Positions 19,474 to 48,491 of a stretch of 64,000 bases of DNA are shown one piece after another. The notes under the pieces were generated by a model that saw nothing but the letters and a program-made list of their open reading frames with translations, made no database searches and was not told the origin of the DNA. A program made the position numbers and the translations under genes. The stretch covers positions 124,001-188,000 of the forward strand of contig NZ_JAHBOI010000002.1 of assembly GCF_018531425.1 (NCBI RefSeq). Direction: 5' to 3'. Position 1 is the stretch's first letter. Every line of letters starts with the position of its first letter. This stretch comes from Paenarthrobacter sp. DKR-5 (GTDB lineage: Bacteria; Actinomycetota; Actinomycetes; Actinomycetales; Micrococcaceae).

Positions 19474-20325
19474 ATGCCTGACGCCGCCCTGGCCGCCCTG
19501 ATGTGCCCGCACTGTGCCGGCACCTTTCCCGCCCGTGCCGTGGACGGAGCCCTGCGCTGCAGCGAAGGCCACGCCTTCGACGCCGCCCGTCAGGGCTACA
19601 TCAACCTGTTGACCGGCCATGGGACCCGCTTCAGCCAGGACACGGCAGCCATGATCGCGGCCCGGGCCGATTTCCTTGCTGCCGGCCATTACAGCCCGCT
19701 CGCCGACGCTGTCGTATCCGCCGCTGTGGACGCCGTGAAGAACGCTTCCGCCGAGCCGGTGATCCTCGACGCGGGCACGGGCACGGGCTACTACCTGCGG
19801 CAGGTCCTCGCCGCGCACCCGGCTCAGGCAATCGCCTTGGACATCTCCAAGTTCGCGCTTCGGCGGGCGGCAAGGACGAACCCCGGGGCGCTCAACCTCG
19901 CCTGGAATCTCTGGGATCCGCTGCCCGTTGCCGCCAAGTCGGTCGATGTCATCCTGAACATCTTCTCGCCGCGCAATCCGCCGGAGTTCGCCCGCGTCCT
20001 CAAACCGGGCGGAAGACTCCTTGTGGTGACGCCGGATCGCGGCCACTTGGCGGAGATCGCCGAAGCGGCAGGGTTGCTGGGCATCGAGGAAGACAAGCAG
20101 CGCCACCTTGCCGAGGCCTTGCAGGATGCGTTTGAGGCCGGCCCGGACCGCCGGATTTCCCTGTCCTTGTCGCTGTCCCGGACCGACGTGGCCAACGCGG
20201 CGCTGATGGGACCTGCGGGACATCACCTGGACCCTGCAGCCCTGCGGGAGAAGCTGGCGGCGGCACCTGACCCGTGGCCGGTAGCTGCGCGGTTCCGCCT
20301 TCAGGAGTTCACGCGGCGGCGCTGA
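19474..20325 (+). CDS. 23S rRNA (guanine-N1)-methyltransferase, RlmA family
   Basis: A 283-residue SAM-dependent methyltransferase of the RlmA type, which methylates G745 or G748 in helix 35 of 23S rRNA. An N-terminal zinc-binding region CPHC...CSEGH is at residues 11-33. The SAM motif I LDAGTGTGYY is at about 91-100, and FSPRNPPEFARVLKPGG follows. The GYINLL sequence before the Rossmann domain is a family hallmark. Some members confer tylosin resistance (TlrB/RlmA-II); which position is modified cannot be decided by eye. Leaderless start at ATG 19474. Its last 17 bases overlap the convergent yczE gene. Confidence 0.9.
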   Translation: MPDAALAALMCPHCAGTFPARAVDGALRCSEGHAFDAARQGYINLLTGHGTRFSQDTAAMIAARADFLAAGHYSPLADAVVSAAVDAVKNASAEPVILDAGTGTGYYLRQVLAAHPAQAIALDISKFALRRAARTNPGALNLAWNLWDPLPVAAKSVDVILNIFSPRNPPEFARVLKPGGRLLVVTPDRGHLAEIAEAAGLLGIEEDKQRHLAEALQDAFEAGPDRRISLSLSLSRTDVANAALMGPAGHHLDPAALREKLAAAPDPWPVAARFRLQEFTRRR

Positions 20326-23174: not shown

Positions 23175-24146
23175 ATGAATATTTCGGGGGGCGCACTGGG
23201 TCTGACAGTTGTCCTGCTCGTGCTGGTGGTCTTTGTCATCATTGTCCTGGTCAGGGCGGTGAGGATCATCCCGCAGGCGCGGGCCGGCGTCGTCGAGCGG
23301 CTCGGCAAGTACCAGCGCACGCTGAACCCGGGCCTGACGATCCTCATACCGTTCGTCGACCGGCTGCTGCCGCTGCTGGACCTGCGCGAGCAGGTCGTAT
23401 CCTTCCCGCCGCAGCCGGTGATCACTGAGGACAACCTCGTCGTCTCGATCGACACGGTGGTTTACTTCCAGGTCACCGATGCAAGGGCAGCGACCTACGA
23501 GATCGCCAATTACATTCAGGCTGTCGAACAGTTGACGACGACGACGCTGCGCAACGTGGTCGGCGGATTGAACCTGGAACAGGCCCTCACATCGCGGGAC
23601 GAGATCAACGGGCAGCTGCGGGTGGTGCTCGACGAGGCGACCGGCCGGTGGGGCATCCGCGTTTCCCGCGTGGAGCTCAAGGCCATCGAACCGCCGCACT
23701 CGATTCAGGACTCGATGGAGAAGCAGATGCGGGCCGAGCGGGACCGCCGCGCGGTGATCCTGACCGCCGAGGGCACCAAGCAGTCACAGATCCTGACCGC
23801 CGAGGGTCAGCGGCAGGCCGCGATCCTGAAGGCCGAGGGCGACGCGCAGGCCGCGATCCTCCGCGCCGACGGCGAGGCACAGGCCATCCAGAAGGTCTTC
23901 GACGCGATCCACAAGGGCAACCCGGACCAGAAGCTTCTGGCGTACCAGTACCTGCAGACGCTTCCGAAGCTGGCCGAGGGAAGCTCCAACAAGCTCTGGA
24001 TCATCCCCAGCGAGGTGGGCGAAGCACTCAAAGGCGTTGGCAGCGCACTCAGCGGCGGTCCGGACCAGGCCGGCTTGTTCGGGGGCGCCGCCGAGGACAG
24101 TGCGCCCTCCTCCCCCGCGGGCGGCGGGCAGGACGCCCGGCCCTGA
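23175..24146 (+). CDS. SPFH/Band 7 (stomatin/paraslipin-like) protein
   Basis: A 323-residue SPFH-domain membrane scaffold. One N-terminal helix (residues 6-27) is followed by RIIPQARAGVVERLGKYQRTL, the start of the Band 7 domain, then DLREQVVSFPPQPVITEDN and the ATTLRNVVGGLNLEQALTSR-type segment. A coiled-coil region rich in AEGxxQAAIL repeats (about 195-240) mediates oligomerisation. The start at ATG 23175 is supported by GAGGAACGG. With the NfeD gene just upstream it forms the classic two-gene operon, probably organising membrane microdomains or protease access. Confidence 0.94.
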   Translation: MNISGGALGLTVVLLVLVVFVIIVLVRAVRIIPQARAGVVERLGKYQRTLNPGLTILIPFVDRLLPLLDLREQVVSFPPQPVITEDNLVVSIDTVVYFQVTDARAATYEIANYIQAVEQLTTTTLRNVVGGLNLEQALTSRDEINGQLRVVLDEATGRWGIRVSRVELKAIEPPHSIQDSMEKQMRAERDRRAVILTAEGTKQSQILTAEGQRQAAILKAEGDAQAAILRADGEAQAIQKVFDAIHKGNPDQKLLAYQYLQTLPKLAEGSSNKLWIIPSEVGEALKGVGSALSGGPDQAGLFGGAAEDSAPSSPAGGGQDARP

Positions 24147-24170
24147 CGCCTGCCGGCCGCTGGAACCGGC

Positions 24171-24200
24171 TTTACCGCAGGGCCCCGGAGCACCTATAAT
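24171..24200 (+). promoter_or_regulatory. Vegetative-type promoter of rbpA
   Basis: A perfect TATAAT (24195-24200) stands out in this GC-rich sequence, with TTTACC/TTACCG 17-18 bases upstream as a -35. It starts about 48 bases after the SPFH gene ends and 143 bases before the rbpA ATG. Confidence 0.6.
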
Positions 24201-24231
24201 CGATTGTTTGTCTGGCGTCAATGACTTCGCA

Positions 24232-24257
24232 GGAACAATCGGTGTTCCTCGCGCGTT
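24232..24257 (+). promoter_or_regulatory. SigR/SigH-type promoter of rbpA
   Basis: GGAAC at 24232-24236 and GTT at 24255-24257 are separated by exactly 18 bases, matching the actinobacterial SigR/SigH consensus (GGAAT/C-N18-GTT). In Streptomyces rbpA belongs to the SigR disulfide-stress regulon, so the location is the expected one. The 5' untranslated region would be about 80 bases. Confidence 0.6.
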
Positions 24258-24342
24258 TCATTAGTGCACACCGTAGCCTGCCGGGACTGGTCCGGAAGGC
24301 TAGCGTGGAGCCCTGCTCCGCGAACTGAACGAGGGAGAGATC

Positions 24343-24690
24343 ATGAGCGACCGTAGCCTCCGTGGCATGCGACTGGGCGCGCAAAGCATGGAGACCGAAT
24401 CCGGCGTGGAGCCGGCTCCGCGCCAGCGTGTGGAATACCGCTGCGCAGACGGCGAGCAGGTGTTCGTCACCTTCGCCGCCGAAGCGGAGATTCCCCCCGT
24501 CTGGGTGTCCAAGACCGGCAAGGAAGCTCTCCTGGTCGACGGCGAGAAGCCGGTTGACTCCAACGAGAAGCCGATCCGCACGCACTGGGACATGCTGCTT
24601 GAGCGCCGCACGATCCCCGAGCTGGAGCAGATCCTCGAGGACCGTTTGAACATCCTCCGCGAACGCCGCGGCGAGCGGCGTTCAGCCTAA
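24343..24690 (+). CDS. rbpA: RNA polymerase-binding protein RbpA
   Basis: A 115-residue actinobacterial transcription factor that binds RNA polymerase and the principal sigma factor and stabilises open complexes. The N-terminal tail MSDRSLRGMRLGAQSME is typical. It is followed by the core domain around RVEYRCADGEQVFVTFAAEAEIPP, here with a single cysteine. Next come the basic linker and the sigma-interaction domain KPIRTHWDMLLERRTIPELEQIL. AGGGAGAG precedes the ATG. Two candidate promoters lie upstream, one housekeeping-like and one of the SigR/SigH type, and a bidirectional terminator follows. Confidence 0.97.
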   Translation: MSDRSLRGMRLGAQSMETESGVEPAPRQRVEYRCADGEQVFVTFAAEAEIPPVWVSKTGKEALLVDGEKPVDSNEKPIRTHWDMLLERRTIPELEQILEDRLNILRERRGERRSA

Positions 24691-24720
24691 GAGTCACCGC
24701 ACCTCCCCGCGAATGCGGGA

Positions 24721-24762
24721 ACGAAAGAGGGCCGGTTCCCGCGGGAACCGGCCCTCTTTCGT
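24721..24762. terminator. Bidirectional terminator, perfect 42-base palindrome
   Basis: The entire stretch is an unbroken inverted repeat of 21-base arms, centred at 24741/24742, with AAAGAGG/CCTCTTT ends. It separates the convergent rbpA and ppm genes and would terminate both. Confidence 0.85.
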
Positions 24763-24792
24763 GCGCGGAGCGACCTCCGCTTCCGGGAAGTC

Positions 24793-25524
24793 TCAGGCAG
24801 TCTTGCCGGTGAGCTTCTTCCAGCGCGCGGTCAGACCCCACTTGGTGACATTCACCATGGCTTCGACGACGATGTTGCCGCTCATCTTGGAATCCCCGAG
24901 TTCGCGCTCGACGAAGGTGATCGGCACCTCAACGATGTTCAGCCCCAGCTTTGCGGTGCGCCAGGCCAGGTCCACCTGGAAGCCGTAACCGACGGACTCA
25001 ACCTCGGCCAGGTTCAGGGCCTCGAGGGTTTCGCGCCGGAATGCCCGGTAACCGCCCGTGACGTCCTTGATCTTCAGCCCCAGCATGATCCGGGAGTAGG
25101 TACTGCCGACCCGGGAAATGGCCTTGCGGATGAACGGCCAGTTGACCACCTTGCCGCCGGGAACCCAGCGCGATCCCATGGCGAGGTCAGCGCCGTTACG
25201 GACCGCCTCAAGCAGGGACGGAAGCTGCTCGGGCTGGTGCGAGCCGTCGGCGTCCATCTCCACGAGGACGTCGTAGCCTGCGGCCAGGCCCCACCGGAAC
25301 CCGGCAATGTACGCGGCCCCCAGCCCCTCCTTGCTCTTGCGGTGCAGCACATGGACGTTGCTGTCCTCCGCCGCGCGCCGATCGGCGAGCTCCCCGGTGC
25401 CGTCGGGGCTGTTGTCGTCTACGACCAGGACGTCCGCGTCGGGAACGGCCGCGCGCAGCCTTCCGAGGGTGACCGGCAGAGACTCCAGCTCGTTGTAGGT
25501 GGGAATGATGGTGAGGACACGCAA
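24793..25524 (-). CDS. ppm: Polyprenol-phosphate mannose synthase
   Basis: A 243-residue GT2-type glycosyltransferase that transfers mannose from GDP-mannose to polyprenyl phosphate, making the donor for lipoglycans and protein mannosylation. The GT-A fold begins at [21 protein letters not shown] follows, then the DXD metal motif in VEMDADGSH and [22 protein letters not shown] ends the protein, without the membrane domain found in some fusions. I start at TTG 25524; AAGGAAAGG lies upstream and no better start exists near the conserved N-terminus. A -10 TATACT is seen at 25601-25596. Confidence 0.9.
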
Positions 25525-46351: not shown

Positions 46352-47635
46352 CTAGAGCTCGACGCCGAGCAGTGCGTTGACGGTGTCGCCCGCAAGGGCC
46401 GCGTCCGCTGCTGAGCCCTCCCCGCTGGCGGCGCAGGACTCCGCCCAGCTGTCCACTGCGGCAAGGGCGGCCGGCGCATCCAGATCGTTGGCCAATGCCG
46501 CGCGCACTTCCGCAAGCAGCGGAGCGGCCGAGGCTTCGGCCGCATTCCCCAAGGCATGGCGCCAGCGGGCCAGGCGGTCCTTGGCTGCCACGAGCACCTC
46601 GTCCGTCCAGAACCAATCACTGCGGTAGTGGTGGGCGAGGATGGCGAGCCGGACGGCCGCAGGCTCCTCCCCCGCGGCGCGCAGCTTGGAGACGAGCACG
46701 AGGTTGCCGCGGGACTTGCTCATCTTCTCCCCGTCCAGGCCCACCATGCCCGTGTGGGCGTAGCGGCGGGCCATCGGCACCCCGGACAGCGCGTAGGCAT
46801 GTCCAGCGCCCATTTCGTGGTGCGGGAAGACGAGGTCGGAGCCGCCGCCCTGCACGGTGAACGGCGAGGGAAGGAAACGCCCGGAGATCACGGTGCATTC
46901 GATGTGCCAGCCCGGGCGTCCGGCGCCGAGGCGCCCGCCGTCCCAGCTGGGCTCGCTCTCGCGGGCTGCGCGCCAGAGCAACGGGTCCAACGCGTGGCGC
47001 TTGCCGGCACGGTCCGGGTCCCCGCCCCGCTCGGCGAACAGCGGAAGCATCTGCTCGGCCGTCAGGCCGGAGATCTGCCCCAGCCACCACGGTGCGGTAT
47101 CGGACCAGGCCGACGGATCCGCGGCGGCAGCGACCACGTCGAAATAGACGTCGCCGGCCGGCTCCGATCCCAGCGCAGGGACGCGGTAGGCGAGCCCGCG
47201 GTCCACCAGTGACTCCACAGCGGGAACGATCCAGCCCACGGCTTCGACGGCACCGATGTAGTGGTCGGGCGCGAGGACGTTCAGCGCTTCCATGTCCGCG
47301 TGGAACAGTTCGGTCTGCTCCCGGGCGAGTTCCCGCCAGTCCACCCCGTTCTGCTCTGCGCGTTCGAGCAGCGGGTCGTCGACGTCGGTGACGTTCTGGA
47401 CGTAGTGCACGGTCTTCTTGGCATCCCGCCAGGCGCGGTTGAGCAGGTCGAAGGCCACATAAGTGGCGGCGTGGCCCATGTGGGTCGCGTCGTAGGGGGT
47501 GATCCCGCAGACGTAGAGGCCGGCCTCCGCCTCGTCCGGCAACGGTTCAACCGCGCCTTGCGGCGTGTTGAACAACGAGATGGCCGGCATTTCACCGGGC
47601 AGTTCTGCGACAGGGCGGGATTTCCAAGTCTTCAC
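46352..47635 (-). CDS. mshC: Cysteine:glucosaminyl-inositol ligase MshC (mycothiol biosynthesis)
   Basis: A 427-residue class I tRNA-synthetase-like enzyme that joins cysteine to GlcN-Ins, the penultimate mycothiol step. Features: [16 protein letters not shown] with zinc-binding Cys43 and the HIGH-like HMGH at 52-55, then [11 protein letters not shown] and WHIECTVI (zinc-binding Cys). [13 protein letters not shown] carries the KMSKS motif at about 303. Unlike CysS it lacks the C-terminal tRNA-binding domain, and its N-terminus [14 protein letters not shown] is MshC-type. GTG start 16 bases after uppP, so co-transcribed. Confidence 0.96.
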
Positions 47636-47651
47636 GTTTTCAACCCTAGTG

Positions 47652-48491
47652 CTAGGCGCTGATCACTCCGAAACCGAGCAGCAGATACACCGCCGCGCCG
47701 AGCCCGATCCGGTACCACACAAAGGCCCGGTAGCTGCGGGTCGAGATGAACTTCAGGAACCAGCCGATGATCAGGTAGCCGATCCCGAAAGCGATCACGG
47801 TGGCCAGGGCCGTCTGCCCGAGGCTGAAGTGTTCCGCTGCGCCACCGGTGTGCTTGCCCACCACCTTGTACAGCTCGTAGAAACCGCTGCCGAAAACCGC
47901 AGGAATGGCCAGCAGGAACGAGTAGCGGGCGGCCGCCTCCCGGGTGTAGCCCATCAACAGGCCGGCCGTGATGGTGCCGCCGGACCGCGACACCCCGGGG
48001 ATCAGCGCCAGCGACTGGGCGAGGCCGTAGTAGAGGCCGTGCTTGTACGTCAGCTGGTCCAAGGTGCGCACGTGGCGGGCGACGGCGTCGGCCACGGCGA
48101 GGATGACGCCGAACACGACCAGCGTGGTGGCGACGATCCAGAGGTTGCGCAGTGAGGACTCGATGGCGTCCTGGAAGAGCAGTCCGAGCACCACGATCGG
48201 GATGCTGCCCAGGATCACGAGCCAGCCCATCCGCGCGTCGGGGTCCTCGCGGGGCACCCGGCCGCGGAGGGAGCCGAACCAGGCGCGGATGATGCGTACG
48301 ATGTCGCGCCAGAAGAACACCAGCACGGCGGCTTCGGTGCCCAACTGGATGATCGCGGTGAAGGCCGCCCCCGGGTCCGCCACGTCCGGCAGCAGTGCCC
48401 CGACGATGCGCAGATGCGCGCTGGAGGAGATTGGCAGGAACTCGGTCAGGCCCTGAATCAGGCCCAGGAAGGCAGCTTGGATCCATGTCAC
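47652..48491 (-). CDS. uppP: Undecaprenyl-diphosphatase UppP (BacA)
   Basis: A 279-residue membrane phosphatase recycling undecaprenyl pyrophosphate for cell-wall synthesis. [20 protein letters not shown] holds the conserved Glu and SSSAH motif. The second active-site segment is [36 protein letters not shown]. About eight helices. The GTG at 48491 has TAGGGT at 48504-48499 seven bases upstream, so it is predicted leaderless. An upstream ATG would lie inside the promoter. mshC follows immediately. Confidence 0.95.

Follow-up and report, generated by a model that had tools for sequence, protein, structure and literature searches.

The rbpA gene of Paenarthrobacter sp. DKR-5 is most probably preceded by two promoters in tandem, a housekeeping promoter (P1) and a stress promoter (P2) that SigR, and probably SigE as well, would read to raise the level of RbpA. 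Judged from the DNA and its comparison with relatives, we put the probability of this reading at about 85%. In the window, i.e., the whole 64-kb stretch of DNA that was analysed, the locus has the following features:

24171-24176, plus strand: -35 hexamer TTTACC of P1, housekeeping (sigma-A-type), found by promoter scan together with TATAAT
24195-24200, plus strand: -10 hexamer TATAAT of P1, from the promoter scan and recurrence in relatives
24201-24210, plus strand: putative region of P1 transcript starts, CGATTGTTTG; relatives repeatedly show TTTG behind the -10 box
24232-24237, plus strand: -35 element GGAACA of P2, ECF (SigR/SigH-type), fifth base C, from sequence and comparison
24254-24257, plus strand: -10 element CGTT of P2, its GTT N18 after GGAAC, from sequence and comparison
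24266, plus strand: predicted transcript start of P2, with GTT taken as -11 to -9 (PMC6411747)
24343-24690, plus strand: rbpA, RNA polymerase-binding protein RbpA, 115 aa (PF13397, 141 bits against a cut-off of 25, E 2.4e-41)

Both promoter-like elements lie on the rbpA strand, in the gap that separates the rbpA start from an SPFH/Band 7 gene with its stop at 24146. Downstream of rbpA, a glycosyltransferase gene (PF00535), which we take to encode a polyprenol-phosphate-mannose synthase, is located on the opposite strand and runs towards rbpA. P1 reads TTTACC-N18-TATAAT (24171-24200), and its spacer of 18 bases lies within the 16-18 bases that separate sigma-A-type hexamers. It matches the consensus at 10 of 12 positions and is the sole sigma-70-type site found by promoter scan within 24100-24850 (mean of 0.0 in shuffles). 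P2 has the form GGAAC-N18-GTT at 24232-24257, with GTT at 24255-24257; written out, it is GGAACA-N16-CGTT, and its GGAAC begins 37 bp past the start of TATAAT. SigR/SigH-dependent promoters have the same arrangement, namely GGAAY(A) at -35, (C)GTT at -10 and 18 bases between GGAAY and GTT. The preliminary description of this DNA had reported an exact 18-base spacing of GGAAC and GTT and a perfect TATAAT box, and on re-reading, the positions of both were exact. As the GTT of a SigH-type -10 element occupies positions -11 to -9 (PMC6411747), a P2 transcript is predicted to begin near 24266, which agrees with the 5-9 bases after 24257 that had been expected.

Taken alone, the single P2 motif match is not beyond chance. 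The window holds two exact GGAAY-N18-GTT matches against 1.68 expected, at least two occurred in 50 of 100 shuffles, and the second match (19904-19929) lies inside a methyltransferase-like ORF. A scan of the 3.78-Mb genome found the pattern 136 times; when it is read backwards, the count is 32. What lifts P2 above chance is its recurrence upstream of rbpA with exact spacing. We compared 58 of 59 genomes (G028, 82% complete and with only a distant copy found, was omitted), and 49 of them, our own included, carry the motif within 300 bp upstream of rbpA, 48 within 200 bp. These are 32 of 36 genomes of the window's family (own included) and 17 of 22 from other families of the order; three further genomes of the 58 have an N19 variant. 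Shuffling the 58 upstream regions (first-order Markov, 200 rounds) gave a mean of 0.33 and a maximum of 3 matches, and each other spacer from 8 to 28 gave 0-4. On the opposite strand, the same pattern was found in 4 of the 58, which is more than in the shuffles but far fewer than 49.

Two further sets gave a similar picture. The N18 motif precedes rbpA in 75 of 80 named loci (the best 80 of 589), with N19 only in one more; these loci are mostly from Arthrobacter and other Micrococcaceae, together with Nocardioides, Oerskovia, Brevibacterium, Actinocorallia and others. For the class-wide set, 118 genomes were searched and 60 upstream regions were hand-picked, most of them from high-ranking hits, with genomes already compared left out; three of the 60 are from the window's own order. 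Here, 50 of 60 have the N18 motif, four more only N19 and one only N17, and other spacers from 10 to 26 gave 0-4 of 60. The 58-, 80- and 60-locus sets overlap in part (e.g., L007 and L145), and their counts are therefore not summed. The site is conserved before orthologous genes, as is typical of SigR/SigH-dependent promoters, in each of the three sets (49/58, 75/80 and 50/60). This comparative footprint as good as rules out a chance match of the ECF motif, with rbpA driven by P1 alone, a very improbable explanation in spite of the unremarkable count in the window and the 136 matches genome-wide. Thus, P2 is almost certainly a real stress-type promoter, as far as comparison of sequences can tell.

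Because GGAAY and GTT served as anchors for the alignment of these regions, their columns are set by design. Two independent columns are informative: A follows GGAAY in 69% of the family and in 88% of the rest of the order, and C precedes GTT in 81% and 76%, respectively. Both bases belong to the published SigH consensus (PMC3489674). The base before GGAAC is A in the window and G or T in the published consensus. In the family alignment from -75 to +59, no further column exceeded 0.6 bit; the other families of the order had a few additional single columns above this value. The flanks have diverged while the elements and their spacing are unchanged, as expected for a promoter under selection. 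The same comparison bears on a palindrome, GGAACA-atcgg-TGTTCC, with perfect 7-bp arms at 24231-24249, which starts 31 bp past the P1 -10 box and by its symmetry and position could be an operator through which a repressor or activator controls P1. Its left part and the GTT recur, whereas the TGTTCC half is not conserved: it occurs in the P2 spacer of one of the 49 aligned loci of the genome set, the window's own, and in none of the 62 named loci with the motif (within L122-L185). A palindromic operator is excluded on these grounds, and we give it hardly any weight.

The preliminary description had staked its proposal on a SigR/SigH homologue, the absence of which was looked for. The genome encodes a cognate pair: SigR scores 379 bits with TIGR02947 (cut-off 251.55), and RsrA, with 87.5 bits for TIGR03988 (cut-off 62.5), lies directly behind it (C10:329968-330806). 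SigR is above its cut-off in 56 and RsrA in 55 of the 59 genomes searched. Besides rbpA, four candidate regulon genes were examined, sigR, trxB, msrA and mca; msrA is a SigR/SigH-type target. The sigR gene carries an upstream GGAAT-N18-GTT, and GGAAY-N18-GTT lies within about 700 bp before sigR in 8 of 10 sigR loci, this one included. A GGAAY-N18-GTT is located 119 bp before the trxB match; msrA and mca of this genome have no upstream motif. In other organisms, mca is reported as a SigR/SigH target (PMC3489674, PMC10012870).

A SigE ortholog is encoded as well (NF007229, 279.9 bits against a cut-off of 265). It is followed by anti-sigma-like and TatB-like genes, which both score below curated cut-offs; the three stand in a row at G000:C10:130001-131892 (L271), a row that resembles sigE-cseE-tatB as described for C. 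glutamicum (PMC10012870). The two sigma factors differ in a region-4 motif, GTVMSRLHRGR in SigR and GTVRSRIHRGR in SigE, in which Met is replaced by Arg. According to C. glutamicum homology models, Met170 of SigH or Arg185 of SigE touches bases at that end of the -35 element (PMC10012870). We infer from the sequences that the Met and Arg of GTVMSR and GTVRSR occupy the same columns as these two residues.

This matters for the fifth -35 base. SigH and SigE of C. glutamicum are described as sharing the GGAAC promoters, with one exception, and GGAAT promoters as belonging to SigH only (PMC10012870). The same source gives C as fifth -35 base and cGTT as -10 element for SigE, both of which are found in the GGAAC...CGTT of P2, and C is reported there to be essential for SigE of M. 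tuberculosis. As the fifth base is C and the ortholog is encoded, SigE may read P2 as well. Conservation of the motif by itself cannot tell a predicted SigR promoter from a SigE promoter. It is conceivable, though unlikely, that SigE is the main reader of P2, in line with reports on rbpA of mycobacteria, and that the signal is whatever frees SigE, perhaps including oxidative stress, rather than the thiol oxidation sensed by RsrA. Besides the base itself and the ortholog above its cut-off, the placement of M. tuberculosis rbpA within the SigE regulon (PMC10027907) speaks for this explanation; mycobacterial rbpA is likewise assigned to SigE in PMC6344877, and Hu et al. 2016 link mycobacterial SigE/rbpA to oxidative stress in their title. 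However, SigH of C. glutamicum reads GGAAC promoters too (PMC10012870), and the SigH structure contains GGAACA as the consensus -35 element (PMC6411747). Moreover, the fifth base is T in 13 of the 32 family loci (19 have C), and the choice between C and T in the family shows no association with a SigE-like factor, meaning here a second ECF hit of at least 98 bits and not a verified SigE (C, 15 with and 4 without; T, 8 with and 5 without; Fisher p 0.43). The four family genomes without the N18 motif are all among the 13 without a SigE-like factor (p 0.012), an association on which we do not rely, as the genomes are related and not independent. SigR is the most likely reader of P2, probably joined by SigE.

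Of the 60 class-wide regions, 32 have T and 18 have C as fifth base, and the remaining 10 have no N18 motif; the base is uniform inside each family with several motif-bearing members. Streptomyces-like genomes (f37) have T in 6 of 6; mycobacteria-like genomes (f22) have C in 4 of 6, and the other two are without the motif. The RbpA N-termini of f37 best match the solved chains 8hvr/8dy7 and those of f22 best match 2m4v/5tw1/6bzo, presumably Streptomyces and mycobacterial proteins, respectively. ECF control of rbpA could thus be ancestral in the class, with one base shifting the sigma factor, T restricting the promoter to SigR/SigH and C admitting SigE also; we regard this as tentative and somewhat doubtful. 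It would assign T to the Streptomyces-like genomes and C to the mycobacteria-like genomes and most of the window's family. If true, the one-base difference would be a simple reason for the differing reports on the sigma factor in charge of rbpA, SigR in Streptomyces and SigE in mycobacteria. The clade pattern fits such a switch, but the window's family varies at this base and does not track the SigE-like factor.

P1 has a narrower distribution. Of the 32 motif-bearing family loci, 14 have a TATA[AC]T box at 15-65 bp before GGAAY (0.74 expected); the same search found none in 17 loci from other families of the order. In the named loci with the motif (within L122-L185; nearly all Micrococcaceae by name, one named Sporosarcina), 46 of 62 have a TATAAT-type box 15-90 bp ahead of GGAAY; the commonest distance, 37 bp from start to start (19 of 46), is that of the window. 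The -10 box expected of a sigma-A promoter is thus conserved in relatives, within the family only. The candidate tandem P1-P2 layout is common in the window's family, and the predicted ECF promoter has a class-wide range. Of the 46 named loci with a box, 36 have TTTG no more than 12 bases past it, and TATAAT-N3-7-GTTTG occurs a single time in the whole genome, at 24195-24210 of the window; possibly, the TTTG is a start-site or regulator signal.

From the observed elements, their recurrence and the SigR-RsrA and SigE genes, we infer sigma binding, induction and a physiological effect at P2 as follows. The housekeeping sigma factor would read P1 and provide a basal supply of RbpA. The redox-sensitive anti-sigma factor RsrA would release SigR, which then reads P2, so that more RbpA is made in thiol or oxidative stress. 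With C as fifth base, SigE may also act on P2, and further stresses may feed in. The extra RbpA would aid the housekeeping RNA polymerase during stress. RbpA is described as tuning this polymerase and, in Streptomyces, as also contributing to basal rifampicin tolerance (PMC6344877).

The N18 motif is absent before rbpA in 9 of the 58 genomes, in 5 of the 80 named loci (best 80 of 589) and in 10 of the 60 class-wide regions. Genomes G001, G013, G016, G038, G056 and G057 are without it and have SigR above the cut-off, so ECF control of rbpA would not be universal even where SigR is present. Loci that have no ECF motif before rbpA include L100, L253 and L270 of family f19 and L186, L187 and L196 from Microbacteriaceae or Micrococcales. 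The three f19 loci have CGTT(T)ATAC near the start in its place; G056, a member of f19, is one of the genomes that encode SigR but have no motif. Among RbpA paralogues, 1 of 11 examined has the motif, at -213, and the promoter thus belongs to the main rbpA copy. The window's genome encodes another RbpA-like protein (G000:C8:247724-248047, minus strand, locus L109) that shares 40% identity with the first, and no GGAAY-N18-GTT was found up to 400 bp upstream of the match.

SigR-controlled rbpA is already known from Streptomyces. The rbpA gene of S. coelicolor is reported to be transcribed by SigR (PMC6344877; Newell et al. 2006), with direct SigR dependence in vitro (PMC9205884). The likeness lies in the same gene with an ECF promoter of the type GGAAY-N18-GTT, present in all six f37 genomes, and the difference in the -35 element, GGAATC in f37 and GGAACA in the window. 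The preliminary description had supposed the same kind of rbpA control as in Streptomyces, with an ECF promoter of the SigR/SigH type next to a housekeeping promoter; the elements are present, the ECF motif recurs across genomes, and its type is common to both lineages, which supports the proposal. With mycobacterial rbpA, a member of the SigE regulon, P2 shares the C at the fifth -35 base, found in every f22 genome that has the motif (4/6); it differs in reading GGAACA where f22 has GGAACT or GGAACC. Promoters shared by SigH and SigE in C. glutamicum, such as those of dnaK and clgR (clgR P2), are given as GGAACA-N16-CGTT and are identical to P2 of the window in elements and spacing, but they precede genes other than rbpA (PMC10012870).

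As far as the literature found shows, what is new is the present instance, the tandem layout in the family, the recurrence throughout the class sample and the way in which the fifth base differs between clades. Among the matches listed in our literature search, none dealt with promoters of rbpA in Arthrobacter or Micrococcaceae. A comparison of actinomycete SigR regulons from 2012 may name rbpA as a conserved target. The presence of a stress promoter before rbpA in most genomes sampled across the class suggests that making more RbpA under stress is an ancient response that has been kept.

The proposed link between rbpA and the mycothiol gene mshC found no support in its direct form. On the strand of mshC (TIGR03447, 625.6 bits; 46352-47635, minus strand), the 64-kb window holds no exact GGAAY-N18-GTT, and the nearest one-mismatch site upstream on the same strand (48316-48341) lies inside uppP. 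The mshC gene begins 16 nt behind this uppP/BacA gene, the pair spanning 46352-48398 on the minus strand, and given the short gap, mshC is probably read through from uppP in one transcript. In S. coelicolor, mshC is reported as SigR-dependent, apparently indirectly (PMC3489674), and an indirect dependence of this kind may exist here. The idea of a link was reasonable, as mshC of C. glutamicum has a SigH promoter (PMC10012870).

A structured leader before rbpA was searched for with Rfam (E up to 1), which gave only hits below the gathering score, none of them within 24147-24342. For the 142 bp in front of rbpA, no match was found elsewhere in the genome or in the 58 relatives (E up to 0.001). 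The rbpA leader contains an imperfect inverted repeat at 24269-24307 with 16-nt arms (81%), and a similar sequence can be seen by eye in L006.
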